Positions 12,401-54,320 of a stretch of 64,000 bases of DNA are shown here, in pieces (positions within the stretch are counted from its first letter, which is position 1; each line of letters starts with the position of its first letter). The stretch is from Sipunculus nudus. Its lineage: Eukaryota > Annelida > Sipuncula > Golfingiida > Sipunculidae. The DNA lies in NCBI GenBank assembly GCA_026874595.1, contig CM049307.1, forward strand, positions 81,320,643-81,384,642, given 5' to 3'. The notes below the pieces were generated by a model. That model did no database searches, was not told the DNA's origin, and saw only the letters and a list, made by a program, of their open reading frames with translations. Made by a program: the position numbers and the translations under genes.

Positions 12401-14525
12401 TTGGACCCTAAAATCTACAGGATTATTACTTTACTGGTGAGCAATATATAAGTTAAGTTTGAAACCAATATATCTGACTAAACTGGAGTTATCAGCTGGA
12501 AACTGATTTGTGAACAGATGGCCCCTGTGACCTTGACCTTTGACCTTGTGACCCCAAATTCATTTATGCTCTCCCTATACTGGCAAGTCAGCTCAATGTG
12601 CAAGATAGAAAATTGGGATGAAAAGCTTGGCTTAAAATGCAGCCATAATCTTTTTAAAGTGAGTCTTGTGACCTTGACCTTTGACCCCACGACTAAAAAA
12701 TCACATATGTTCGTTCTTTAGTGGTGGGCCATGTGTAAGTCATGTTTGAAATCCATATTTCAATCCAACCTCGAGTTAACATCTGGAAACAAATTTGTGT
12801 GGATGGACAGATGGACAGACAGACAGGGTGATTACTATAGGGCATCCACTTGTGATCAATAAACACACCAGGTTTTGGGACACTAGATAGACTCATAGCC
12901 CAGAAACTGAGAGATTGTTGTCATTTCATTGTAAAAAAAAAAAATAGAAAAATATTCGTAAAAATTAGAAAAAATACAGGTGGCGCCACCACTTTTCTGG
13001 AACTGACAAAACTAGTCATGATCAATATTCAAGGCAAGTTTCATGACAATCCATGCATTTATTATCAAGATATTGGAGATTTTGTATCAAATATTTTATT
13101 ATTCTGGGGGGGTATTTACAAGTCCAATAGCTCGGAGGATATAGGTCGCAGTGACCTAATTTCAGGTTTTCAAGAAGATTTTTTATTGACCTCCCTGGAT
13201 GTACACTTAGAAGTTTCTAGGACCAGCAGTTACAATTTGTGCCCTGCTAACGGACGTACGAACGGACAACGGACAAAGCTCCATTCCAATACCTCAGTTG
13301 ACTTATAGTCAGCTGAGCTAAAAAATCTGGAAAACTGAAAAAAAACACTTAATCTAAAAAAAAAGAGCCTGATATAAAATCATGAAGCTTTTAAAACAAC
13401 GCCAGATTACATCAGTACAGGTATACTGTCTAAATAATCAAAAGATTATTTACTCTGGGACCATTGGACCCTAAAATCGACAGGATTATTACTTTACTGG
13501 TGAGCAATATATAAGTTAAGTTTGAAACCAATATATCAGACTAAGCTGGAGTTATCATCTGGAAACTAATTTGTGAACAGATGGCCCCTGTGACCTTGAC
13601 CTATGACCTTGTGACCCGAAATTCATTTATGCTCCTCCTATACTGGCAAGTCAGCTAAATGTGCAAGACAGAAAATTTGGGATGAAAAGCTTGGCTTAAA
13701 ATGCAGCCATAATCTTTTTAAAGTGAGTCTTGTGACCTTGACCTTTGACCTCATGACTAAAAAATCACGTTCTTTCTTTAGTGGTGGGCCATGTGTAAGT
13801 CATGTTTGAATTCCATATTTCAATCCAACCTCGAGTTAACATCTGGAAACAAATTTGTGTGGATGGACAGATGGACAGACAGACAGGGTGATTACTTTGG
13901 GGCATCCACTTGTGATCAATAAACACACCAGGTTTTGGGACACTAGATAGACTCATAGCCCAGAAACTGATAGATTGTTGTCATTTCATTGTAAAAAAAA
14001 ATAGAAAAATATTCGTAAAAATTAGAAAAAATACAGGTGGCGCCACCACTATTCTGGAACTGACAAAACTAGTCATGATCAATATTCAAGGCAAGTTTCA
14101 TGACAATCCATGCATTTATTATCAAGATATTGGAGATTTTGTATCAAATATTTTATTATTCTGGGGGGTATTTACAAGTCCAATAGCTCGGAGGATATAC
14201 CTAGGTCGCAGTGACCTAATTTCAGGTTTTCAAGGAGATTTTTTATTGACCTCCCTGGATGTTCACTTAGAAGTTTCTAGGACCAGCAGTTACAATTTGT
14301 GCCCTGCTAATGGACGTACGGACGGACAACGGACAAAGCGCCATTCCAATACCTCAGTTGACTTATAATCAGCTAAGCTAAAAAATCTGGAAAACTGAAA
14401 AAAAACACTTAATCTCGAAAAAACAAGAGCCTGATAAAAAATCATGAAGCTTTTAAAACAACGCCAGATTACATCAGTACAGGTATACTGTCTAAATTAT
14501 CAAGTTTCTTCACTCTGGGAGGGGG
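12401..14525. repeat. Tandem duplication of a ~1.06 kb repeat unit (two copies)
   Basis: Copy A (12,401-13,463) and copy B (13,464-14,525) are direct repeats with an offset of 1,062-1,063 bp. Examples are TTGGACCCTAAAATC at 12,401/13,464 and GTATACTGTC at 13,421/14,483. Copies differ by scattered substitutions and a few small indels, so the duplication is recent. Each copy contains GACCTTGACC clusters, a GGTGGCGCCACCAC core, an open frame of 96-97 codons (13,018-13,308; 14,075-14,368) and an inverted AGCTCAGCTGA-type terminus with GGACGGACAACGGACAAAG (about 13,250-13,325; 14,310-14,392). The frames lack recognisable domains and are treated as part of the repeat. Confidence 0.9.
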
Positions 14526-20804: not shown

Positions 20805-23800
20805 TATATATAGCTATGAGTTATGCGGTTTTTAAAACATATCACATCCTTTTGATATCATTCCTCACCACCAAAGGTCACCTTTGTATACTTTCATTTC
20901 ATTCTCCACCTGTAAAGATCACATTTGTGTACTTAGGTGAAAAAGTATTAAATTTCAATATGTGGCTTTATAGCAAATGGCCTGGTACTCATGTCCACAA
21001 TCCAAAGTGTTTTCAAATTGTTTCATTAAAAACTCTTTAATATCCTATAATCTGCTGTGTTCAATGCCATATGAATGCTCAATTTGCATCCATAATTGTT
21101 CAGATCTAGTTTTGAAGTGGCAAAAGGGTTACAGAGCATGTACAAAAAGCTTGTGTCAGCATGTTTTAAATTATTAGACATTTGTAATGTACATCTCTTG
21201 CTTTGGTGCTTGATGTTTGTGTGACTGCACAAATCATTTTGGAATTTAATTTATTCACATTGCCTCAAAAGGCCAAAACATTTTGTGCGTGAAAGTTGAT
21301 GTATAATGCAGAGACGTATGATGATACCAATACAATATTTGACACTCTATCACAATGTGTCAATGAAATGTTATAGTAACTTAAGATAAAGAAGACTTAC
21401 TATATGGCCGCATTCATGCTCAGTAAGTTGCTGGGTTTGTACTGGTCTTTCAGTGTGCTGTCTGTGGGCATCTGGAAATATTCCATACAGTTATAAAAAT
21501 TGATACTACCTGTAATAACGAAGACAAAAATAAATAACAAACATATTTTTGATGATTATATAATGCTTAAATGAATTTTTTTATTTTTTCATATTTAACA
21601 TCAATACATTATGACCATACAACTTATGTATTCAAACAGGTAATGAATGATATACATATTTCTTTCACCAAAGATAATCCAATACCAAAGATAATCTGTG
21701 TCTCCATTTAGAGCCACATCTTTGGAAGAAAAACATAACCCTATGTATAACACACCCATTTTCTGGCCAAAATCCTGGATATTGTAAGTTGTATTTGTGA
21801 TAATCATTTGAATTTTTAATGGCTCTGTAAACTTTGTCAGTCACTTGTAAAATCCCTTAGATCTAGCACAAGAGCAGACCGTTACAACTGAAATCATAGT
21901 CTGTTCTCGTGGTCTTTAGGCCTTTCGTACAAACAAATCATGTCCAAGCATGAAAATAGTTTGGAAATTATGCTTCCATGCATAATACACACCTATGTTT
22001 TTGTTTTCAATTTTATGATGAAAAAATTATCTTTGGTGAAAGATGGTATATTTTTACATATAGTTAACAATGATTAACACTTTTAGACTTTAACAAACAG
22101 TTAACAATGATTACCACTTGTATATTTTAACAAATGGTTAACAATGATTAACACTTTTAGACCTCAACAAACAGTTAATAATGATTAACACTTTTAGACT
22201 TTAACAAACAGTTAACAATGATTAACACTTGTATATTTTAACAAACAGTTAACAATGATGAACATTTGTATATTTTAACAATGAGTTAACAATGATTAAC
22301 ACTTGTATATTTAAACAAGTGCACAACAATAATTTAACACTTACTGGCAACTCTTGATGCTCCACACAATTCACATGTGGTACGTTGTGGTACATTATGG
22401 TAGGTACACATCCGACAAGGCCAGCGGTCGGGGTCACTTTCTCTCTCCCAGTTAAATGTGGAATGGTTTCCACTCGCTGTTGATAGGAAAATCACATCAG
22501 TGATGAATAATTTTCAATTATTCCATATAATTATAAAAACAATTAACCAAACCATACACTAAAGGGGACTCTGCAAATGAAATTCATGTCATCAAATCTA
22601 TACAGATCTATCCAACATCTAATTATTATATGTTCCTCGGCAGTTTTGTTGCTTAAACGTTATCTACGATCATATGGAGTGGCACACCAAGTCATATTGA
22701 AAACCGTGCAGTGAAAACCTTAATGGGGAAATAAAATTTTTTCTGATTTTGGAAAAAACCTCATTATTTACATATACTATTTAAATGCTAAATCAGTTGT
22801 GCATTCATGTATAGCTTTCGTGTGTAATGAAATATTTTTTCAGGTTTCTACCTTATCATTTTGTAATACAGTTAACCATATGAGCTAGTTTGGTCTTAAT
22901 TTTAATGGTTGCATCATTCTAAGATGAGATTTATGAGATAGCTTATGGTACTTACAAATAAACCTCTGGTATCCAGGGGGCGCTGTTGGAGTAGGGTAGT
23001 CTGGTGGTGGCTCAAGCTGGCGTGACTGCTGCCAAAGAACAGAAAAGTTCATAAAAATATGTCCAACAAATTGACACCAAATTATGGTCAACACTATTAA
23101 TGAAAAAAAAAATCCATATCTGCTGTCAATGCCTGCATTCTGGACTAAGTGCCTTTGAATTATTTCACTGAAAATCACTTACATTTCAATGAAGAGACAC
23201 TGGGAAACAACTTGTTACTATGATACAGGACAGTGCTACTTCATGTAGTTGAAGTGGATCACTTTACCTTGAAATTGATTTTTTTTTATAAAATTACATT
23301 TGTTTCTTAATTTTGTTGAAAGTTGCTGCCCCAAAAAATTCTGCATATCAAAAACCGTGAAAATATTTCATAATCAAAATTGTTTGATGATAAACCAATG
23401 CCTCCCGCAGTGTCACTCACTTCCAGTAGTCTTCTCTCAAGTTCAATGTTTCGTGCCCTCAGGTTCTGTAGGTCCCTAGAATTGGCAGAACTCTGAAGAT
23501 CAAAGAAAAATTATTTACCAAAGGATTGTATCTACCAAGACTACAAAAGATAATCAGGGCACAGCAAATATGCTCAGCTCACTGTTTTGTCAATTTAATG
23601 CTGCTTTTATGAATTCTTGAAAAACTGACACCCTTTTGTTTTGAGAGTTAACCTGGGCCAGCCGATCCTGCCAATGGGAAGCACATTACTTCTTCCCTGA
23701 GTTAACTGATGGTGGCTCTATTTGTTTGTTAAATATTGTCTTCTGCAGTAAAGTTATAGGATAGAGCTTAGCTGATACCACAAAGTATAAGTTTTTTAAA

Positions 23801-26800
23801 TTTTGCTGAAATATGCTGGTTTGAACCTACAAGTGAAGGTATACAAGAAAAATATATATTGTATAAATAAGCAATGCATCTTAATTTTTAATCTTGGTAA
23901 ATGAATATGTGTCAACCAATAGTTAAACAGTACAAGGGTCTAAGGCGCCAGTACTAGTAAAATTTATATAAAATTTATTCATATACAATAATATTATTTT
24001 TTATACAATAAAATGAATATGTAATATATAAAAAAAATAAATAAAAAATGATAGAATATGTATAAAAGGCCATAGTCTTATGTCTTCTGAATCAGGGAAA
24101 GCTCTGAAAATGTAAATATAAATTTGACCTACCAGATACCGCAGATTTTGGTTTTCCATCTTCTGCTCTTCCAGTTGGGTCTTTAATAAGTTGACCTCTT
24201 CTTGTGCCCGTTCACGATCCCTGCGTTCTCTTAGAAAATCCTCCTCATGTATTTTAGACTGTAATGCAATGACAGTAATTTTATTATATTTCAACCGTTT
24301 ATAGATATTCTGCAGATTCTTTTAACAAAAGGAGTGTCATTTAAAGGAGTGACATTTAAGTTTGTCCCCTTAAAAGTTAGTCCCCTTACAAGTTTATCCT
24401 GATAAAAAATATGATAAATATAAAAAAAAACCTACTGAAGGCAAATATTTGGTCAGCATCTCAGGCTATAGATAAGCATTAGTACAATCAATATTTCTTC
24501 ATAATTTTTAAAAAATTTTTATTATTTTTCTTTTTATAAGTTTTCTTAAATATTTACAGAAAAAAAATCAATAGTAATGTTACCATATGTGGCTAACTGA
24601 CAGTCAGCTAAGCTTCACAGCAGGCTTTGGAAGTACTGACCTGTTGTTTGAGGACCTGGTTTTCTGTGATCAGCATTGATCTTTCTTCAAAGAAGGGAGA
24701 ATAGTCACTCTGTCTCTGCATCCATGCCTCAGGCTGAACAAATTGGAAAATCAAGAATATCATTATGAAAAACAAGCATATAATGTCAGTTGGAAAGAAA
24801 ACTTGTCAATTGGAAAGAAAACTGAAATTGAGAGAGTGATATACAAACTATAACCCATTTCAATTACATTCAAAATTAAAATTTAATTTTGGAACACTAA
24901 ATAAACCGAAACAGCTCCATGTTCCTGGCATCCAATCAGCATTCTAAGCATTTTCAGGGCATACGTTTATTTTTTGTGAACAACTGGGATTGGGTGCTAC
25001 CTTTCAAGGGTTTGGGTCAGTATCTTTATTTCTGTACTGAGCACTTACATGCAGAGTGAAAACCTGTGTAATGAGGCCACCTGTGAGACTAGCAAATCAT
25101 GGTCTTAATCTGCAGGTGGTCTTATTAAACAGGTCAGTTATAAACACTGTAAATACTTTTGGTTCACACAAAGGTGTTCTCAATAGAGAGGTGGTCCTAT
25201 GTACTAGAAAGATGGTTTCTTAGAAATGTTCCACTCAACACAATTTACACAAAAAATCTTGAACATCAGATTTAAAATTTATCATTTTGTCATTTTTGCA
25301 GAATTCATGAGTTTAATGAACGTTAGCTACTCCTTCAACCTTGGTTTAAATAATTTTGTTTTGAATATATTGTACCAATGTAAGGGTATCCAGTAAATAT
25401 TCTTAAGTTTCTACCTGGTACTGGCGGCTGTCTGAGATCAGCTGTTCCTTCATCCTGACCAGCCTCTGGATCTCCTCCTGGGCCTTGAGTTTTTCCTGTT
25501 CCAGGATGACCCTGCGAGCTTTCTCTTGCTGTGCGACCTCCTCGGCCACTGAGCGAGAACGTCTGTCAACAGCAGACTGCTCATGCATCTCCGCAAGGGA
25601 CAACTACAAAGAATGAACACATGCTTTACAAGCAATTATGAAAAAGGTAGACAGAAAAAATATGTAGCAGAAAAATTGTAGCACATGATTAATCATACAT
25701 TACAATTAGAGCTAAGGGGGGATATTCCAACTGGCTTTGATCAGAGAAGAAAATTGAAAGTCAAGATTGAAAAAAAAAATCACAAAAATAAAAAAACAAA
25801 CCAAGTGTGGCTTAAACTCAATCAGGTAATGAACACAATAGGATACACCTGCCATTTCAATACAACTAGGTGGATATAACTGACAGTTCTTGAGAGATAT
25901 TGCATCAAGTAATAACTGTTCAAGCAGGGACAGAGTTGTTCTGGAATTAATAAAGTTACCAAGATTATGATTGGACGGGGCTCGTACCTGTAGGTTGCTG
26001 ATCTCTGCCTCCAGTTGATGGACTTTTGTCTGCAACTCCTGGATTTGTTCCCGGAGCCTCGATATTTTCTCGGTAGCTTCCTTTTTGGTCTGTTTTAAGT
26101 GCTCATCCCAGCATTTATTAGCTGTCACCAGCTGGAGGAAGACAAGGAAAGTCATTTTAATTCCTGCAAGGCTTGGCTGGCATGGTTTACTTCAATGTAG
26201 TAGGTGTTCAATGCTATGTCTGTATTTCTATATTATGCCATCAACAGACCACAGTCTTAAAATTTTCCTCTTGGCAACCTGCTTGTTCAAAATTAATGCA
26301 AGAACACACAAACTCACCAATGTAAATGTGACAAAAGTTTGTCAATCATAGCATAAGGTAATTAACAAAGGTTTCAGTGAGAATCAGTAGAAAATAACAC
26401 CTACAAACTTAATAAACAGTTACAAAAGACAAAAAAGTTTACAGATTATTTCAAATTTGTATCACTCTTACTAAGGATATGACAAAGAATAATCAATAAG
26501 CACACATTGCTTTCAAAGTTGTGAAGAGGAAAAATTTACATTACAATCATCCAAAACAAGACAACAAAAATCAGTCCTGCAATAGCTCAGTCAGTGATTC
26601 GATTGGATATACAGCAAAGACCTACCTTTTGCATATGATTTCTTAACTTCTCGACCAGACGGTCTTTATCATCCATGTCCTTTAAGCACACTGATGTCGC
26701 GCCGGACTGGAAAAAACACACACTCATTAAAAGGTGTTACAAAATACTGTAATATCATGGTTAAAATATACAGGAACTTTATTCAGTATAATGATGATAT

Positions 26801-36500: not shown

Positions 36501-38994
36501 ATTTTTTCTGCTGTGTACATAGTGCTATTCTACCTGAAGTTGCAATTACAGTTAAAAACCCTTGCTGATGTAGTTATATTCACAACTAACAGATGATAAA
36601 GAAGACATACAATTAAACATGGGTAAAACCATAACCTCCTATGGATGAGGTAACAGGACTGGACTAACCTGTGTTGTCAGATGTGACTGTGTTGACCCAC
36701 TCTGTCCGGGGGAAGCCAGCGTATTTTTGCACTGTCCACACAGTTGCTGCTGCAGCATCTTGCTCTCCTTCTCCAGCCTGTGGTTCTTCTCCTTCAAGCA
36801 ATCACCTGACCACAGCAATAAAATCAATTATTTCAACAAACCAACACACCAACCTCTGCTGTCATTATGGAATTTAGTTATTGACCAACAAACTTCATGG
36901 TTAACATAACATAACTATGCAATTTCTTAAATTATGGGATACTTTCTTTTTGGGATGTTTTTGGTATACCATACATATCCTTAAAACTGAATAGACTGGC
37001 ATACCATAGTTGTGCTTAAAAGTAATTTAAATGCCATGAGGCAGGTAACTGATGGTATTTTATTTTTTTTCCCATAGTGAAACCGAAAGAATGAAGATGC
37101 CAACATAAAGGCAGTTTCAATAAACAGGGCAGTGGTTTGATGGGCAAGTATTTGATAACATTTCAATAGACTTTGTGTCTCTGACTCATTCCCATATTTT
37201 TTTTTATATTAAAGATGTCTTTTCCATGAAAGACCATAATACAATGTGTAAAACACCATTTACCTTCTGAAATAATTTCCTCAATTCTTATAAAATGTGA
37301 TATCATTCCCATCTATGTCATACAAAGTGTCATATTTGAATTTAAATTAGGCCAGAAAAAAAAGTTGGTTCTCAAGCATCCCCCACGTCAGTTTTAACCC
37401 CCATCCCCCCCCAACCTAAAAATTTTGATTTTGATTTTCATTGTCAAGTAGATAAAATAATACAATTTTGACAGGATGTCCTCAAGTTGTTATGTAGTGC
37501 TTTTACCTGTTAAGTGAAAAAATTCTGTTATTATCATGCTTTTCTACGGTGGCTCGTATAAGACATGCACAAAATTATTTTTTATCTCGTTCCCACACGA
37601 TAGTATCTCTTGGCCACGCGATAATTATCTCGTTCCCACAAGATAGTATCTCGTTCCCACGCGATAATTATCTCGTTCCCACGCGATAGTATCTCGTGGC
37701 CACGCGATAATTATCTCGTTCCCACGAGAAAGTATCTCGTGGCCACGCGATAATTATCTCGTTCCCACGAGATAGTATCTCGTTCCCACGCGATAATTAT
37801 CTCGTTCCCACGCGATAGTATCTCGTGGCCACGCGATAATTATCTCGTTCCCACGCGTTAGTATCGCAAGGCTAAGCGTTAGTATGCCATGCTATAGCTT
37901 AAGCCCTCATTTGGACAAGAATGTTTGTGGTCTGTATTATATCGAGCGTCGATGCAGCTTAAATTGTTTGTATGTATTTCGTTGTATGTGTGTTTGTGCC
38001 GATTGCTTTGAGGTAAATTTCAGCAGTTTTCATTGTGTTGGTTCACCATTTTATTGCGTTGGTTCAACTAGCCCATTTTTATTTGATCATGGAAAACTGT
38101 ATTGAGTTTGTTTTAGGGTAAGGGTGATATAAACCCTTGTGTCCCAAACATGAATTCAACTGAAACACTTGTTTGTATTTTACCTTCCTAGAAAATCTTA
38201 TTTTTAGGACTAGGGTTGGGGTTATTTAATTTCGGGTATACCGAACAGGGTAAACAACATGTCGGTTTGTGTTATTTCTCAAGGGAGAAGCTATCAGCAA
38301 AAGGTCTCAGCCATGCCACTTCATTATGACTGGGGGAGGGGTTAAGGAGACCTTTTTACGAGAAATTTGCTCATTCTTCCCCTTCGCATTTTTCTTTGTA
38401 CAATAAAACTTCAGTTATGTATTCATAGGCGCCGAAACCGTTGGTTTTTTTTTTTTACCCTACATAATGATGAGTATAAAAACATCCACTCTATTATTAT
38501 TGGGTATTTGCACCCTCACATATATATGTATGTATATATATATATATATCCTCTTCTGCTCAGTACTTGTAGTCCCATATATACAGGGCCGCAGACTCCG
38601 GGATTTGTGGTGAAAAAAGTTGATATTCTGTGTGAAAATGAACCCATTGCCAGACAAATAACAAATAATCTCCCTACAAGGAGGTACTGTTTTACTTAAT
38701 AAGCATTGACCATTAAAATGCACCAGAATGCAGAAGTACAGTTTTTCAAAATTTCAAAAAAACTTGGGAGGGTAAGACCCCCTCCCAACCCCCCCCCCCC
38801 CTCGTATCGGATTACCCCATCAAATCCCCCCCTGCCATTTGTGTCAGGCTACGGCCCTTATTTATAAATATATATATATATATATATATATACATACATA
38901 TATATATATATATAAATAATATACATATAATATATATGTATATATAATATATATATATAATATATATATATACTAGTATATATAATATATATAT

Positions 38995-39062
<68 letters not shown>

Positions 39063-40522
39063 CTATTTGGTTATACTATTGGGCCCCCAATGAAAATTTG
39101 GTTTCGCCGCCAATGGTAATTTATATTGTGAACATTTATTATGAAAAATATTTTACCCGAACTAGCCCCCCCCCCCCCCCTTTCCCCACTCACACATTCT
39201 CCAGACAAACATGGCCCACGAGTGTTGTACGAGTGCCCGTTGTATCATTTCAGGTCTCAGCATATTAAGTCCGCTCTAAATTCATGCAAATAATTGACCA
39301 TAGTCTTCATCCAGTGTATAGAAGCATGCCTCAAGGATTTAAGATGTAGGTCTTACTGTATTATCTATCTACATTTATCTCGTTCCCATGCGATAATTAT
39401 CGCGTGGCCACGCGATATTATCGCGTGGGAATGAGATAATTATCGCGTAGCCACGAGATACTAACGCGTGGGAACGAGATAAATATTGCGTGGGAACGAG
39501 ATACTAACGCGTGGGAACGAGATACTAACGCGTGGGAACGAGATAATTATCGCGTGGCCACGAGATACTAACGCGTGGGAACGAGATAATTATCGCGTGG
39601 CCACGAGATACTAACGCGTGGGAACGAGATACTATCTCGTGGGAACGAGATAAAAATAATTTTGTGCATGTCCTATGCGAGCCACCGTCCTTTTCCCTGA
39701 TCCTATTACCTTTTTATTGAAACATACAAAACAAAAGGTAAAAAACACCCACCCACACTGATTTTTGAAGAAAAAGTGCCTGACAATCTTTTTTTCTTGG
39801 CCTTACACAGCTGCATTTTTTTTTTCAAATGTGTTTCATCAATACTATCTTCTAAATTAAATATCACATAAGCAGAGATGGTGCATTCTAGGACTACTTT
39901 TTTTATTGCTATTAATTGAAATTTTAAGAGTTAACATTTGATGGAACTATGGTGTCAGGCAGGCTTGCAAACTTTGAGACAAGAAAAAGATGATGATTGC
40001 AGACTGGTTCACTTGGAAGAATTGATCACCAGAGAAATTATCAGATACATGACAGGCCAATGTTTTTGCTGCTAGATCTTATTTCCCTGATGTCTTTGCA
40101 CCAATCTTTGTGATGGTTAAGATTTAACAGAAAATTTTCAATAAATGTGATGAATTATTTCAAAACATTCAATTATAGGTTAAAATAAATGTTGTCATCA
40201 TAAGCATTTCCGAATTAATTAATAAGTGAATGTACTTCAGATCCAAAGTGGGCATGGAACCAATCTATTTTCACTTTTGCATTTTTTTTTCAACAAATAT
40301 TAAAGTGCATATAAATCAGAGCCAATGTGAACATGGAACCAATCTATTTTCACTATTGCAGGGTGTGATGAAATGCAGTTTGACCTTTGACCTACCCATG
40401 GCTGTGCTGATCTGGAGTCTGCTCTGCAGGTCAGCCAGCCTGGTCGTGAGCTGCTCACATTTAACACACTTGCTACCGGTATCCTGAGAACCACATATGT
40501 CTAGGGCAGGAAGATCAGTCAT
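20634..40522 (-). CDS. TNIP1: TNIP1/ABIN-1-like ubiquitin-binding adaptor with C-terminal NZF finger (16 exons)
   Basis: TNIP1 family members are cytosolic adaptors that bind polyubiquitin and the deubiquitinase A20 (TNFAIP3) and restrain NF-kB and death signalling. Exons, in transcript order, are 40522-40396, 36805-36669, 34355-33711, 33119-33009, 32544-32450, 31850-31697, 26706-26626, 26131-25988, 25603-25415, 24733-24641, 24258-24133, 23492-23421, 23028-22956, 22476-22345, 21471-21401 and 20726-20634. All borders are GT-AG and phases agree, giving about 780 residues (human TNIP1 is about 640). Order: short coiled coil with two CxxC pairs (1-88), Ser-rich disordered segment (89-303), coiled coils (304-450), ABIN homology block with [10 protein letters not shown] (451-498), coiled coil (499-561), UBAN (about 580-634), Pro/Tyr segment (659-682), NZF finger (701-724) and an unconserved tail. 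The NKxWDxH and EEDFxRERxDRER blocks align with human TNIP1 as I know it. Vertebrate TNIP1 has no NZF. Start choice: an in-frame TAG lies 15 bases upstream of this ATG. Uncertain points are the last two exons and any 5' noncoding exon. Confidence 0.85.
20746..20813. repeat. (AT)n microsatellite in TNIP1-like intron 15
   Basis: About 66 bp of TA/AT dinucleotides with one AA interruption, ending about 20 bp before the exon 16 acceptor on the minus strand. Confidence 0.95.
21401..21471 (-). CDS. TNIP1: TNIP1-like exon 15 (frame uncertain)
   Basis: Acceptor is ATTTCCAG and donor GTAAGT. With the strong exon 14 donor, the frame reads [25 protein letters not shown] second open frame starts at the ATG at the acceptor ([20 protein letters not shown]) and also looks protein-like. 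It would need a weaker exon 14 donor (AGA|GTTGCC) or initiation elsewhere. The exon is probable; its reading frame is not settled. Confidence 0.55.
22050..22330. repeat. ~38 bp intronic minisatellite next to the NZF exon
   Basis: About seven units of AACAAACAGTTAACAATGAT followed by TAACACTTTTAGACTTT or TTGTATATTTT. Unit length is 36-41 bp and variants alternate. The array abuts the donor of exon 14 (22,344) in the following intron. Confidence 0.9.
22345..22476 (-). CDS. TNIP1: TNIP1-like exon 14, RanBP2/NZF zinc finger
   Basis: 132 bases, acceptor CAACAG, donor GTAAGT, entering in phase 1 and leaving in phase 1. It encodes a complete W-x-C-x2-C-x3-N-x6-C-x2-C pattern: W701, C703, C706, N710, C717 and C720. 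After the second Cys comes Thr-Tyr, the place where ubiquitin-binding NZF fingers carry Thr-Phe. The zinc ligands are all present. A short unit repeat lies immediately downstream in the intron. Confidence 0.9.
22956..23028 (-). CDS. TNIP1: TNIP1-like exon 13, Pro/Tyr-rich segment
   Basis: 24 codons plus one base, acceptor TGGCAG, donor GTAAGT. It encodes [20 protein letters not shown], a Pro/Tyr-rich linker. Vertebrate TNIP1 has a similar Pro/Tyr-rich stretch after the UBAN. Confidence 0.85.
23421..23492 (-). CDS. TNIP1: TNIP1-like exon 12
   Basis: 24 codons in phase 0, acceptor CTTCAG, donor GTGAGT. It encodes the last coiled-coil turns ([17 protein letters not shown]). Confidence 0.85.
24133..24258 (-). 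CDS. TNIP1: TNIP1-like exon 11, UBAN ubiquitin-binding core
   Basis: 42 codons in phase 0, acceptor ATTACAG, donor GTAGGT. It encodes [20 protein letters not shown] followed by a leucine-heptad helix. The DF, RER and RER residues form the UBAN signature shared by ABINs, NEMO and optineurin, which as a dimer binds Met1-linked ubiquitin. The SKIHEEDF...RDRER pattern is closer to ABIN than to NEMO (YKADF). Confidence 0.92.
24641..24733 (-). CDS. TNIP1: TNIP1-like exon 10, start of UBAN
   Basis: 31 codons in phase 0, acceptor GTTCAG, donor GTCAGT. It encodes [20 protein letters not shown]. The [11 protein letters not shown] end corresponds to LVTQNELLKQQ immediately before the UBAN of vertebrate TNIP1. 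Confidence 0.9.
25060..25215. repeat. Interspersed repeat, AGGTGGTCTTATTAAACAGG type
   Basis: It contains GAGGCCACCTGTGAGACTAG, GCAGGTGGTCTTATTAAACAGGTC and AGAGAGGTGGTCCTATGTACTAGAAAGATGGT. Related pieces occur at about 17,390-17,435 and 35,820-35,931. It lies in the intron between exons 9 and 10. Confidence 0.6.
25415..25603 (-). CDS. TNIP1: TNIP1-like exon 9
   Basis: 63 codons in phase 0, acceptor TTTGTAG, donor GTAGAA. It encodes a long Glu/Gln/Arg-rich coiled coil ([20 protein letters not shown] and on) ending SRQYQ, between the ABIN block and the UBAN. Confidence 0.88.
25988..26131 (-). CDS. TNIP1: TNIP1-like exon 8, ABIN homology block
   Basis: 48 codons in phase 0, acceptor CCTCCAG, donor GTACGA. 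It encodes [17 protein letters not shown], then [20 protein letters not shown] and EAE. This lines up closely with the vertebrate TNIP1 stretch containing VNKQWDQHF and KITELRQKLADLQKQV, the conserved region linked in vertebrates to A20 binding. It is one of the two strongest homology anchors for the gene call. Confidence 0.9.
26626..26706 (-). CDS. TNIP1: TNIP1-like exon 7
   Basis: 27 codons in phase 0, acceptor TTCCAG, donor GTAGGT. It encodes [20 protein letters not shown], the helix leading into the ABIN homology block. It is separated from exon 6 by the longest intron after intron 1 (about 5 kb). Confidence 0.8.
26707..31696 (-). other. TNIP1-like intron 6 (about 5 kb)
   Basis: No exon was seen. 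It contains (AT)n at 28,369-28,413 and 30,714-30,773, a poly-C run at about 30,113-30,137, and a GC-rich patch with two short hairpins at 30,138-30,220. Non-repetitive CpG-richer sequence lies at 30,950-31,310 with repeated CTTCCGA words. The patches could be an internal promoter for a shorter transcript; this is only inference. Confidence 0.5.
31697..31850 (-). CDS. TNIP1: TNIP1-like exon 6
   Basis: Completes the codon split with exon 5 and ends in phase 0. Acceptor is TTGTAG and donor GTCAGA. It encodes [16 protein letters not shown], then a less ordered Gln/Ala-rich stretch with a single GWITVEKQ segment. Confidence 0.82.
32450..32544 (-). CDS. TNIP1: TNIP1-like exon 5
   Basis: 31 codons plus two bases, acceptor TTTTTAG, donor GTAATT. 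It encodes a continuous helix ([19 protein letters not shown]) that corresponds in position to the ENEALKAKL coiled-coil part of vertebrate TNIP1. Confidence 0.85.
33009..33119 (-). CDS. TNIP1: TNIP1-like exon 4
   Basis: 37 codons in phase 0, acceptor TTATCCAG, donor GTAAGT. It encodes [16 protein letters not shown] followed by an amphipathic helix ending KQFRLQK. It opens the central coiled-coil region. An (AT)n tract of about 98 bp lies some 300 bp upstream in the preceding intron. Confidence 0.85.
33436..33533. repeat. (AT)n microsatellite in TNIP1-like intron 3
   Basis: About 98 bp of AT dinucleotides with one TTT interruption near the 5' end. Confidence 0.95.
33711..34355 (-). CDS. TNIP1: TNIP1-like exon 3, disordered Ser/Pro-rich region
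   Basis: This is the largest exon (215 codons), phase 0 at both ends, with acceptor TTTGCAG and donor GTAAAT. It encodes a low-complexity Ser/Pro/Asn/Asp segment (residues 89-303) with many SP/TP dipeptides, typical of the phosphorylated linker in TNIP1. Two aromatic-x-x-aliphatic sites could be LC3-interacting motifs: YDVI (132-135) and, after [10 protein letters not shown] (271-274, coded at 33,798-33,809). Confidence 0.88.
35820..35931. repeat. Interspersed repeat, CTGTGGAACCTGTCTGAAAG type
   Basis: It begins ACTGTGGAACCTGTCTGAAAG, contains GACCACTTGTCTAATAAGAC and ACCACCTGTGAAT, and ends CTTATTACACAGGTTCACTGTA. Its ends are roughly complementary (CTGTGGAACCTGT against ACAGGTTCACTGT), suggesting a small palindromic element. 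Relatives lie at about 17.4 kb and 25.1 kb. Confidence 0.65.
36669..36805 (-). CDS. TNIP1: TNIP1-like exon 2
   Basis: Acceptor is GGTCAG and donor GTTAGT, with phase 1 entry and phase 0 exit. It encodes a Lys/Glu/Leu-rich coiled-coil stretch ([13 protein letters not shown]) ending in LCGQCKN (C65, C68), then a Ser/Thr/Gln-rich linker. Confidence 0.85.
38428..39115. mobile_element. Possible third-level insertion with GGCGCCGAAACC ends
   Basis: The left ATAGGCGCCGAAACCGTTGG and the right TTGGTTTCGCCGCCAATGG are imperfect inverted ends. Between them are T and C runs, (AT)n at 38,520-38,550, compound (AT)n/(CA)n at 38,865-39,061 and GGGCCCCCAATGAAAATT. It lies within the core of the foldback element. 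No target-site duplication was confirmed. Confidence 0.4.
38865..39061. repeat. Compound (AT)n/(CA)n microsatellite
   Basis: A run of TA/AT dinucleotides with short AAT interruptions, then about 44 bp of pure (CA)n, then AT again. Tyr/Ile- and Cys/Val-rich frames across it are artefacts. Confidence 0.95.
40396..40522 (-). CDS. TNIP1: TNIP1-like exon 1 (start codon)
   Basis: Encodes residues 1-42 plus the first base of codon 43. Donor is GTAGGT. It holds a CVKC pair (C19, C22) followed by a short heptad-like helix. An in-frame TAG lies five codons upstream of the ATG, inside the same probable exon if the acceptor is TTCCAG at about 40,555. A second possible acceptor (GCTAG) lies just before the ATG and would allow an upstream coding exon, so the start is likely but not certain. 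Confidence 0.75.
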
Positions 40523-43410: not shown

Positions 43411-43587
43411 ATGGAGTCTCACGTGGCGAGGGTGTTGGAAAAGTACAATTTTCCATTCACAGAACTTCGTCAAAAGCAAGCTGATATCATCAGGACTGTT
43501 TTAAACCGAAAAACGTGTTTTGGGGTACTACCAACAGGCTTTGGGAAAAGTGAAGTGTTTGGTTTTCCTCCATTGATAATGGATGAG
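43411..43587 (+). CDS. First exon of a RecQ-like helicase (fragment)
   Basis: 59 codons from ATG to a GTATGA donor, phase 0. The frame reads MESHVARVLEKYNFPFTELR and continues QKQADIIRTVLNRKTCFGVL, then PTGFGKSEVFGFPPL. It has the arrangement of a superfamily 2 RecQ-type N-terminus: an RxxQ motif-0-like RQKQ, then motif I (Walker A) PTGFGKS with its Lys and Ser, then the F-x-x-P segment that follows in RecQ proteins. RecQ helicases unwind DNA 3'-5' using ATP. No motif Ia to VI exon is recognisable downstream in the window. Either the rest lies in short exons I missed, or this is a truncated copy; RecQ-like families can be multiplied and broken in animal genomes. Motif assignment is firm; completeness is not. 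Confidence 0.6.
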
Positions 43588-52445: not shown

Positions 52446-52788
52446 GAATATACAATCGTAGATGCATGGGTTTACATATAAAATAACGGAGTGAAATGGA
52501 AAATTTCCTCAATGGATTGTATGCCGATCTAGTGTATAGTCTGTATTAGAACCAGAACAGTTCCAGAGAAAAATAAAAAAACTTCCAGAAAAAATCTCGA
52601 TGGCACCGTTTTTTTTTTTTTTTTAGGAAACCGGAAGGTTTTCAGATGAACCATTTAAGAGGTTTTATGAAGAACGTAAGACAATATCTGGGATAATACG
52701 TCTGCATCTTTTCGCTGTATTATTATTATCAAACAAGCATATACATACAAAAGTAATGTAAATGGTTGACACCTTTTGAAAAAGACTA

Positions 52789-53076
52789 GCTGTGTGTGGG
52801 TTCTTGTACACAAGCTTTCGGGTGCTCGGCCCCCTTCCTCAGGTGTAAATGGAGCTGTTCCTCAGGTAGCTGTTCCCAGTATGGTTCATTTGGACAGGAT
52901 TATGGCAAAGCTTGTCGGGTCTATTGTTAAGTTGTGTGTGGGTTCTTGTACACAAGCTTTCGGGTGCTCGGCCCCCTTCCTCAGGTGTAAATGGAGCTGT
53001 TCCTCAGGTAGCTGTTCCCAGTATGGTTCATTTGGACAGGATTATGGCAAAGCTTGTCGGGTCTATTGTTAAGTTG
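52789..53076. repeat. Two tandem 144-bp units in the left arm
   Basis: The unit running from TGTGTGTGGGTTCTTGTACA to GGGTCTATTGTTAAGT occurs twice, at 52,789 and 52,933, almost identically. The inverted right arm carries one copy (about 53,752-53,897). Confidence 0.9.
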
Positions 53077-53320
53077 TGTCGGTGCTGGCTGAATTAGGGG
53101 ATTGGTGGATTAGTGATCATGATTTCCAGGTAGCAGGTGTCCAGTGAAGTGGTTACTGATCCTTAAAAGCAAGGGAGTGTTCAAAGTTTTCAATTGTTGT
53201 GTTGTGTAATGGTGTAAAAATAAAAAAGTATGTACATAGTCTAAAATAGTTGAGTCCTATGTTTAGTCTTTGTAATGGGTTAGGAATCCATTATCTCTGT
53301 TTAATCCCATATTTAAAACC

Positions 53321-53563
53321 TTGAGACAACGTGTCAACGGCCATAGACAAACCATTAACTCAAACAACCGCTTTGTGCCAATAGGAAAACATTTCTCTGA
53401 AAACGGACATCAGGCCTCGGACATGAAAATATGTGTTTTAATGGGTAATCTGCCAGATACACACAACAGAAGAATATGGGAACTGAAACTAATAGAACAG
53501 TTCGACTGTATAAATATGGGATTAAACAGAGATAATGGATTCCTAACCCATTACAAAGACTAA
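53321..53563 (+). pseudogene. C-terminal remnant of a Penelope-like element protein (GIY-YIG part)
   Basis: About 80 codons to a TAA. Residues read LRQRVNGHRQTINSNN, then GKHFSENGH, ICVLMGN, RRIWELKLIEQF and MGLNRDNGFLTHY. The order LR-x-R-x2-GHR, HF-x3-GH, R-x2-E-x2-LI and GLN matches the end of the GIY-YIG endonuclease region after the reverse transcriptase in Penelope-like elements. The reverse transcriptase and the catalytic GIY-YIG residues themselves are missing: the frame is cut at the junction with the inverted arm near 53,316. Confidence 0.7.
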
Positions 53564-53840
53564 ACATAGGACTCAACTATTTTAGACTATGTACATACTT
53601 TTTTTATTTTTACACCATTACACAACACAACAATTGAAAACTTTGAACACTCCCTTGCTTTTAAGGATCAGTAACCACTTCACTGGACACCTGCTACCTG
53701 GAAATCATGATCACTAATCCACCAATCCCCTAATTCAGCCAGCACCGACACAACTTAACAATAGACCCGACAAGCTTTGCCATAATCCTGTCCAAATGAA
53801 CCATACTGGGAACAGCTACCTGAGGAACAGCTCCATTTAC

Positions 53841-53885
53841 ACCTGAGGAAGGGGGCCGAGCACCCGAAAGCTTGTGTACAAGAAC
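53841..53885 (+). ncRNA. Hammerhead-ribozyme-like core in the Penelope arm
   Basis: CTGAGGA (53,843-53,849) matches the CUGANGA hammerhead box. A helix with GGG/CCC pairing follows, then GAAA (53,866-53,869) and the self-complementary CTTGTGTACAAG. Penelope-like elements are known to carry hammerhead motifs in their terminal repeats. The cleavage-site nucleotide and stem I partners are not clear here, so activity is uncertain. Two further copies on the minus strand lie in the left arm (about 52,805-52,845 and 52,949-52,989). Confidence 0.45.
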
Positions 53886-54320
53886 CCACACACAGCTAGT
53901 CTTTTTCAAAAGGTGTCAACCATTTACATTACTTTTGTAAGTAACAGACTAGCACGGCATTTCAAAACTTTACAAGCATATACATACTAAGTAACAATAT
54001 CGACATTAATACAAACGCTCATGTAAACAAGCAATTAGTGTTTATGAAACTAGAAATATAACTTTGGAAATTTTAGTAGCATTCACTAATTATACTCTAT
54101 GGACTTTTCAAAGCTAAGACAGAATATTACTTTATTTGAATCCACTTCTGGTGCAAATTCTGACATTCCACTTATATTCCTAACTTATACACTCCTCACA
54201 ACTATAGTCTGTTACACTAGTAAGTCCCATGGAAACCTAGCGATTTTTCACTTAAACCTAACTATATTATCATACATTAAGACACTAAAGGGGCAGACGG
54301 AGCACCGGCCTAATATGGCC

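Follow-up and report, generated by a model that had tools for sequence, protein, structure and literature searches.

A TNIP1-like gene of Sipunculus nudus with a UBAN and an in-phase exon encoding a predicted NZF zinc finger

Results and Discussion

A gene model in the Sipunculus nudus genome, identified within the window analysed here (the whole stretch of 64,000 nucleotides), joins a TNIP1-like UBAN to an NZF zinc finger. Judged from its sequence, the gene probably encodes an adaptor of the type of TNIP1 (ABIN1), an anti-inflammatory protein, that acquired an NZF finger by exon shuffling; the finger would provide a second ubiquitin contact and thereby additional avidity. The sequence-only reading had proposed a two-handed ubiquitin reader of this kind with a TAB2-like finger; the TNIP1-like UBAN and the in-phase NZF are indeed found within one gene model, whereas the resemblance to TAB2 is not supported.

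Gene Model

The 16 coding exons are in continuous phase, separated by 15 GT-AG introns, and the 780-aa reading frame contains no internal stops (Table 1). The exon joins are based on splice-site consensus and phase. The G+C content is 48% in the exons versus 32% in the introns. The range originally proposed for the UBAN and the finger, 22345-24733, coincides exactly with exon 14 through exon 10 of the model. The linker encoded by exon 13 contains two PPxY motifs, which are WW-domain ligands. The tandem repeat of intron 14 probably plays no role in function.

Table 1. Positions of the TNIP1-like gene and its parts in the window
Feature	Position	Strand	Basis or remark
TNIP1-like gene, 16 coding exons, 780 aa	20634..40522	minus	start codon 40522, stop end 20634; coding exons only
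Exon 9; terminal EEIQRL aligns with start of TNIP1 crystal construct, upstream of UBAN, toward AHD1 part	25415..25603	minus	alignment 542-625 with 7eao
Exon 10, UBAN start at the exon's end	24641..24733	minus	gene model, Pfam, PDB matches
Exon 11, UBAN core	24133..24258	minus	gene model, Pfam, PDB matches, genome-wide CC2-LZ match G000:C2:81344784-81344936
Exon 12, stretch past UBAN	23421..23492	minus	gene model
Exon 13, proline-rich linker, two PPxY motifs (PPDY, PPGY)	22956..23028	minus	gene model
Exon 14 (132 nt, phase 1-1), NZF zinc finger	22345..22476	minus	gene model, Pfam, PDB matches
Exon 15, C-terminal tail	21401..21471	minus	gene model
Exon 16, C-terminal tail and stop codon	20634..20726	minus	gene model
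37-bp tandem repeat, 7.4 copies, intron 14, adjoins NZF exon	22046..22318	minus	repeat search

The UBAN of Exons 10 and 11

The assignment of exons 10-11 to a UBAN is confirmed by the Pfam CC2-LZ match of exons 10-12 (E 3.4e-8) and by TNIP1 as the best relative among PDB sequences. The CC2-LZ scores fall below the Pfam cut-off of 35.3 bits (34.3 for exons 10-12, 29.9 for the whole protein and 34.7 in the genome search); the two exons are nevertheless called a UBAN because their nearest solved relatives are UBANs. Their peptide scores 37.7 bits, compared with at most 12.7 in shuffled sequences (n=500). By sequence comparison, this UBAN is closer to TNIP1 (E 1e-7) than to NEMO (5.5e-5), TNIP2 (0.005) and optineurin (0.78), with 26 of 47 residues identical to the TNIP1 PDB stretch in an ungapped alignment.

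The similarity to TNIP1/ABIN1 continues upstream: the alignment with 7eao extends into exon 9 (EIQRL), toward the A20-binding AHD1, although the PDB chains span only part of this region. The S. nudus gene differs from vertebrate TNIP1/ABIN1, which is not known to carry an NZF, in its 132-nt NZF exon. The C-x2-C...H-x3-5-C pattern, typical of the NEMO/ABIN2-type CCHC finger, has no match on the window's minus strand, and a hidden CCHC finger in the TNIP1-like gene was rejected on this ground.

The NZF Finger of Exon 14

The finger itself was correctly recognised from the sequence: exon 14 encodes a complete W-x-C-x2-C-x3-N-x6-C-x2-C motif, is joined to exon 13 in phase 1, and places the NZF 66 residues past the UBAN exon, beyond the proline-rich linker. 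Pfam Zn_ribbon_RanBP (PF00641) matches exon 14 alone with E 1.1e-5 and 25.1 bits and the whole 780-aa protein with E 0.0015 and 18.2 bits, both under the cut-off of 27. A genome-wide PF00641 scan, with 150 of 190 candidates scored, gave 19 matches at E<=1e-3, and exon 14 is not one of them. The finger reaches 21.3 bits, compared with at most 11.9 in shuffles (n=500), and the G+C content of exon 14 is 49% versus 32% in introns. Across the six frames of the window, exon 14 is the single match to W-x-C-x2-C-x10-C-x2-C.

In randomised windows, the finger pattern was obtained in 0 of 300 order-1 Markov sequences and in 12 of 4744 order-2 sequences when internal stops were allowed; with internal stops excluded, the count was 4 of 2500, and 1 of 2500 with the N in place. 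The chance of the pattern is therefore about 0.04-0.25% per 64 kb, before any demand on strand, phase or splice sites. An AlphaFold2 model of exon 14 alone, computed without an alignment, was unusable (mean pLDDT 51.7, pTM 0.16).

The 132-nt exon has phase 1 on both sides, and without it the remaining exons still read through as a single open frame of 736 aa. This is what would be expected of a regulated cassette that is mostly skipped, in which case the NZF isoform would be minor or tissue-specific and the main product an ordinary TNIP1-like protein. The splice sites of exon 14 are, however, mid-range for the gene (acceptor 5.1 bits, donor 8.4), and predominant skipping is considered rather unlikely.

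Relatives and Specificity Residues of the Finger

The closest PDB matches to the finger are TRABID, HOIL-1L, HOIP NZF1 and NPL4 (E 5.1e-4 to 0.0041), with 9 to 11 of 25 residues identical; they share with exon 14 the NZF core as well as the T-aromatic and hydrophobic contact columns. HOIP NZF1 is reported to bind ubiquitin chiefly via T360 and F361/I372 (PMC9294000). The corresponding columns of the alignment hold T, Y and L in exon 14, and the ubiquitin-binding triad T-Y...L is kept.

TAB2 (E 0.032) and TAB3 (0.13) carry fingers of the same NZF type, but score below these four. According to PMC6220233, exchange of TAB2 Q686 for Met yields a linkage-independent TAB2. When the columns of the K63-specific TAB2-type NZF are located through the TRABID-TAB2 residue pairs of that paper and the TRABID alignment, Q686 and H678 correspond to L and V in exon 14, with E685 retained as E. 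The finger thus departs from TAB2/TAB3 in its lower score and in a Leu at the Q686 column, hydrophobic like the linkage-independent Met, and its description as TAB2-like has to be abandoned. TRABID W18/S20/T25 are replaced by V/Q/E. For the M1-specific NZF of HOIL-1L, PMC10511788 names the core residues R208/P209 and a helical tail with YxP; HOIL-1L K205-P-T-R208-P209 becomes V-P-Q-R-T in exon 14, so that R208 is kept and P209 is T, and no YxP tail follows the finger. For want of P209 and of the tail, a HOIL-1L-like M1 specificity was rejected.

The finger might instead dock in cis on its own coiled coil, acting as an internal lock and not as a second reader. HOIP, the third gene among its PDB matches, offers the precedent: NZF1 of HOIP binds the NEMO coiled coil (PMC9294000, PMC7246992). 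Only one of the four residues E374-R375-P376-R377 on which the NEMO-binding site is centred (PMC9294000) is conserved, however (G-A-S-R here), which makes cis docking improbable. On these alignments, the residues tied to TAB2, TRABID, HOIL-1L or HOIP-NEMO specificity are mostly missing from the finger.

The weaker PDB matches include the fingers of ZRANB2, RBM5 and Nup153, which are not known to be ubiquitin readers, and a RanBP-type finger with RNA or another protein as its ligand in place of ubiquitin can be envisaged. Since the best matches all bind ubiquitin and exon 14 retains the T-phi...phi triad, there is little chance of such a function. It is highly improbable that exon 14 is part of another gene or a decoy exon, as it lies on the same strand, matches in phase on both sides, has a raised G+C content and is followed by two more in-phase exons that reach the stop codon.

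Origin of the Finger and Other UBAN Genes

The NZF exon appears to have been gained through exon shuffling into a phase-1 intron. Its origin as a recent copy of another NZF gene was rejected, since the genome has exon 14 only once and the second-best of the 14 matches at E<=1 stands at E 0.02. The same chromosome carries an NPL4-type NZF exon, which was rejected as a phase 1-1 exon like exon 14 because it ends in a stop codon. In the search for relatives, 1 pattern match in viral contigs and 23 in bacterial and archaeal genome contigs were obtained, with none confirmed in either set.

The genome-wide CC2-LZ search gives three UBAN genes in S. nudus: NEMO-like, TNIP2-like and TNIP1-like. The first two match NEMO and TNIP2 best, respectively, and have CCHC fingers nearby, whereas the third has the NZF instead; the finger of the NEMO-like gene matches Pfam zf_C2H2_10 (3.2e-10), and that of the TNIP2-like gene has no good Pfam match. 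NEMO and TNIP2/ABIN2 likewise have a zinc finger C-terminal to their UBAN, but these fingers are of the CCHC type and end within a few residues of the stop, in contrast to the internal NZF described here. The NEMO finger binds ubiquitin (PMC11854354; ubiquitin binding according to the title of a reference cited there), and pairing a UBAN with a finger of this capacity is consequently not new per se. What is new is the type of finger, an NZF, and the probable route of its gain. Among the titles and opening parts of abstracts listed for the literature on ABIN, TNIP1 and UBAN, invertebrates included, none describes the UBAN-NZF layout, and no paper came up for the combination of CC2-LZ with zf-RanBP. 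The layout may well be already annotated in invertebrate proteomes.

Relatives of HOIP (UBA pair, E 9.8e-17) and of HOIL-1L (an NZF with tail, L007, nearest to HOIL-1L, E 2.4e-16) are also found in the genome; from these similarities, writers of linear ubiquitin are likely to exist in S. nudus.

Proposed Mode of Ubiquitin Binding

For a TNIP1-type adaptor with an added NZF, the UBAN dimer would bind Met1-linked diubiquitin, and the NZF, itself with little preference for linkage, would occupy an Ile44 patch left free on that chain or on an adjacent one. Avidity would rise through this second site, mixed K63/M1 chains could come within the range of the reader, and the gene product would serve an A20-type brake on NF-kB signalling.

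A more far-reaching and less likely proposal is that this TNIP1 unites in a single polypeptide what takes two in the case of HOIP and NEMO. Its UBAN would hold the Ile44 patch of the distal ubiquitin and the Phe4 face of the proximal one in Met1-diubiquitin, and its NZF would bind the proximal Ile44 patch, which is still free, or else a K63 ubiquitin that branches off. The result would be a clamp gripping linear or mixed chains, switchable by in-frame skipping of exon 14, with an exon-shuffled NZF gained in parallel to the CCHC finger of the related NEMO and TNIP2. In the crystal of HOIP NZF1 with NEMO, the NZF-bound ubiquitin belongs to a symmetry mate, and on NEMO the site for NZF1 is 25 A away from that for diubiquitin (PMC9294000), so that even this structure does not show the sharing of one chain.

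Conclusions

If the proposed layout is true, two routes led UBAN adaptors to a second site of ubiquitin binding in the form of a finger, a CCHC in NEMO/TNIP2 and an NZF here, which would hint that a lone UBAN is often insufficient. The gene would offer a natural fusion for studying the joint use of one linear or mixed chain by a UBAN and an NZF, and its symmetric exon 14 a simple isoform test. Should the layout prove common among invertebrate TNIP1 genes, vertebrate TNIP1 would represent a reduced form.

Gene model, UBAN and NZF finger

The TNIP1-like gene model is continuous in phase across its 15 introns, all of which are GT-AG, and its predicted product of 780 aa has no internal stop. The sequence-only reading had placed a UBAN and a C-terminal, TAB2-like NZF finger of one TNIP1-like protein at 22345-24733, and this range coincides exactly with exon 14 to exon 10 of the model. 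Exon 14 is internal, with two further coding exons after it; its splice sites (donor 8.4, acceptor 5.1) are mid-range for the gene's own sites, and its G+C content (49%) is that of an exon (exons 48%, introns 32%). PPxY motifs, of which exon 13 carries two, are known elsewhere as WW-domain ligands.

The Pfam CC2-LZ profile scores 34.3 bits on exons 10-12 (cut-off 35.3; E 3.4e-8) and reaches E 7.7e-7 on the whole protein. Among PDB sequences, TNIP1 is closest to the UBAN stretch (exons 10-12 and most of exon 13) at 1e-7, followed by NEMO (5.5e-5), TNIP2 (0.005) and optineurin (0.78); with the whole protein as query, the TNIP1 alignment starts upstream of the UBAN exons, at EIQRL in exon 9. The core EEDF-x-RER-x-DRER is common to TNIP1 and the window UBAN. 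The retained aspartate of EEDF is probably the counterpart of human TNIP1 D472, whose change to Asn is described as weakening ubiquitin binding (PMC11940065).

When all six frames of the 64-kb window are scanned, the motif of the exon 14 finger occurs only there. By chance the motif arose per 64 kb in 0 of 300 order-1 and 12 of 4744 order-2 Markov windows, and with stops excluded in 4 of 2500, or 1 of 2500 with the N in place; the probability of a chance match is low, not nil. Pfam PF00641 gives 25.1 bits on exon 14 (below the cut-off of 27; E 1.1e-5) and E 0.0015 on the whole protein. The PDB matches are TRABID (5.1e-4), HOIL-1L (0.0016), HOIP NZF1 (0.0032), NPL4 (0.0041) and TAB2 (0.032); against four of these finger cores exon 14 scores 21.3 bits, and 500 shuffles reach at most 11.9. 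An AlphaFold2 model of the finger alone was too poor in quality for use.

Exon 14 is 132 nt long and in phase 1 on both sides, and its skipping leaves a 736-aa product in a single open frame. Exon shuffling usually moves symmetric exons of this sort, each carrying one domain. Exon 14 is not a recent copy, because it is single-copy and the next of its 14 genome matches has E 0.02.

Features of the window and related genes of the same genome (window positions, unless sequence C1, C2 or C11 of the genome is named; L numbers are NZF loci)
Feature	Position	Strand	Observation
TNIP1-like gene model	40522 to 20634	minus	16 coding exons
Its exon 13	22956-23028	minus	proline-rich; PPDY and PPGY between UBAN and NZF
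Arrays in its intron 1	37560-37880; 39380-39690		mutually inverted, built on ATCTCGTTCCCACGCGATAATT (by eye)
Helicase-like gene, probable first coding exon	43411-43587	plus	Pfam DEAD 8.7e-5, below cut-off; divergent to TNIP1-like gene
ORF	53276-53560	plus	resembles Penelope-like retroelement end (by eye); no Pfam match at E<=0.1
Inverted repeat of one ORF-like sequence	52770-53069; 53733-53915	plus; minus	~0.7 kb apart
Near-identical ORF-like block pair	12856-13305; 13916-14365	plus	spacing ~1.06 kb; no match in Pfam search of second block
NEMO-like UBAN gene	C1, 21.00 Mb		best PDB match NEMO, 5.4e-6
TNIP2-like UBAN gene	C1, 41.14 Mb		PDB: TNIP2 3e-6, TNIP1 2.9e-4
HOIP (L018)	C11, 66.42 Mb		UBA pair (UBA_HOIP) 9.8e-17, same strand as NZF
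HOIL-1L-like (L007/L020)	C11, 69.80 Mb		L007 NZF with tail nearest HOIL-1L, 2.4e-16
NPL4-like NZF gene (L027)	C2, 75.82 Mb		7.9e-7
TRABID-like NZF gene (L021-L022)	C1, 27.06 Mb		by eye
Two RYBP-like copies (L017, L023)	C1, 85.77 Mb		by eye

Comparison with known NZF fingers

HOIP NZF1 is reported to contact ubiquitin mainly via T360, F361 and I372 (PMC9294000), and these columns are T, Y and L in the window finger. The linkage-choice residues of other fingers are mostly absent. TRABID W18, S20 and T25 are replaced by V, Q and E; the adjoining column, that of TAB2 Q686 (T25 itself corresponding to TAB2 E685), is Leu, and Q686M is described as making TAB2 linkage-independent (PMC6220233). HOIL-1L relies on core R208 and P209 and on a helical tail defined by a YxP motif (PMC10511788); the arginine is kept, whereas the P209 position is T, and no YxP is found in the sequence following the finger. 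The E374-R-P-R377 site on which NEMO binding by HOIP NZF1 is centred (PMC9294000) reads G-A-S-R. Since T/Y/L are present and the specificity residues mostly absent, the finger most resembles a plain Ile44-patch binder, probably without marked linkage choice.

Other UBAN and NZF genes of the genome

A CC2-LZ search of the 1.43-Gb genome (E<=0.1), which may miss UBANs with weaker profiles, gave 4 exon matches among 15 candidates, read as three genes, the third being the TNIP1-like gene. Further along the strand, just ahead of a stop, a CCHC finger follows the NEMO-like exon (~0.9 kb; Pfam zf_C2H2_10, 3.2e-10), and another precedes a stop ~9.6 kb beyond the TNIP2-like exon (best Pfam match poor, 0.075); strand and order suggest that these fingers belong with the UBAN exons. 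The TNIP1-like gene differs from both in finger type, NZF instead of CCHC, and in carrying it on an internal exon. UBAN then finger therefore seems the habit of the UBAN family in this genome. Linear-ubiquitin writers also appear to be present, because a HOIP UBA pair and a HOIL-1L-type NZF with its tail were found.

Proposed reading of ubiquitin chains

In the crystal described in PMC9294000, a UBAN dimer on M1-diubiquitin contacts the distal ubiquitin at its Ile44 patch and the proximal one at its Phe4 face, so that the Ile44 patch of the proximal ubiquitin stays free; HOIP NZF1 sits on such a free patch, but of a symmetry mate, and the two NEMO sites lie 25 A apart. The window NZF starts 66 residues past exon 11, beyond the proline-rich exon 13. 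It could occupy the free proximal Ile44 patch within one chain or, alternatively, the patch of a neighbouring K63-linked ubiquitin of the same chain. No description of a UBAN plus NZF layout was found in the open-licence papers searched. Both parts are present in the gene model; we infer that the TNIP1-like protein binds ubiquitin, and such binding would affect an A20-type brake.
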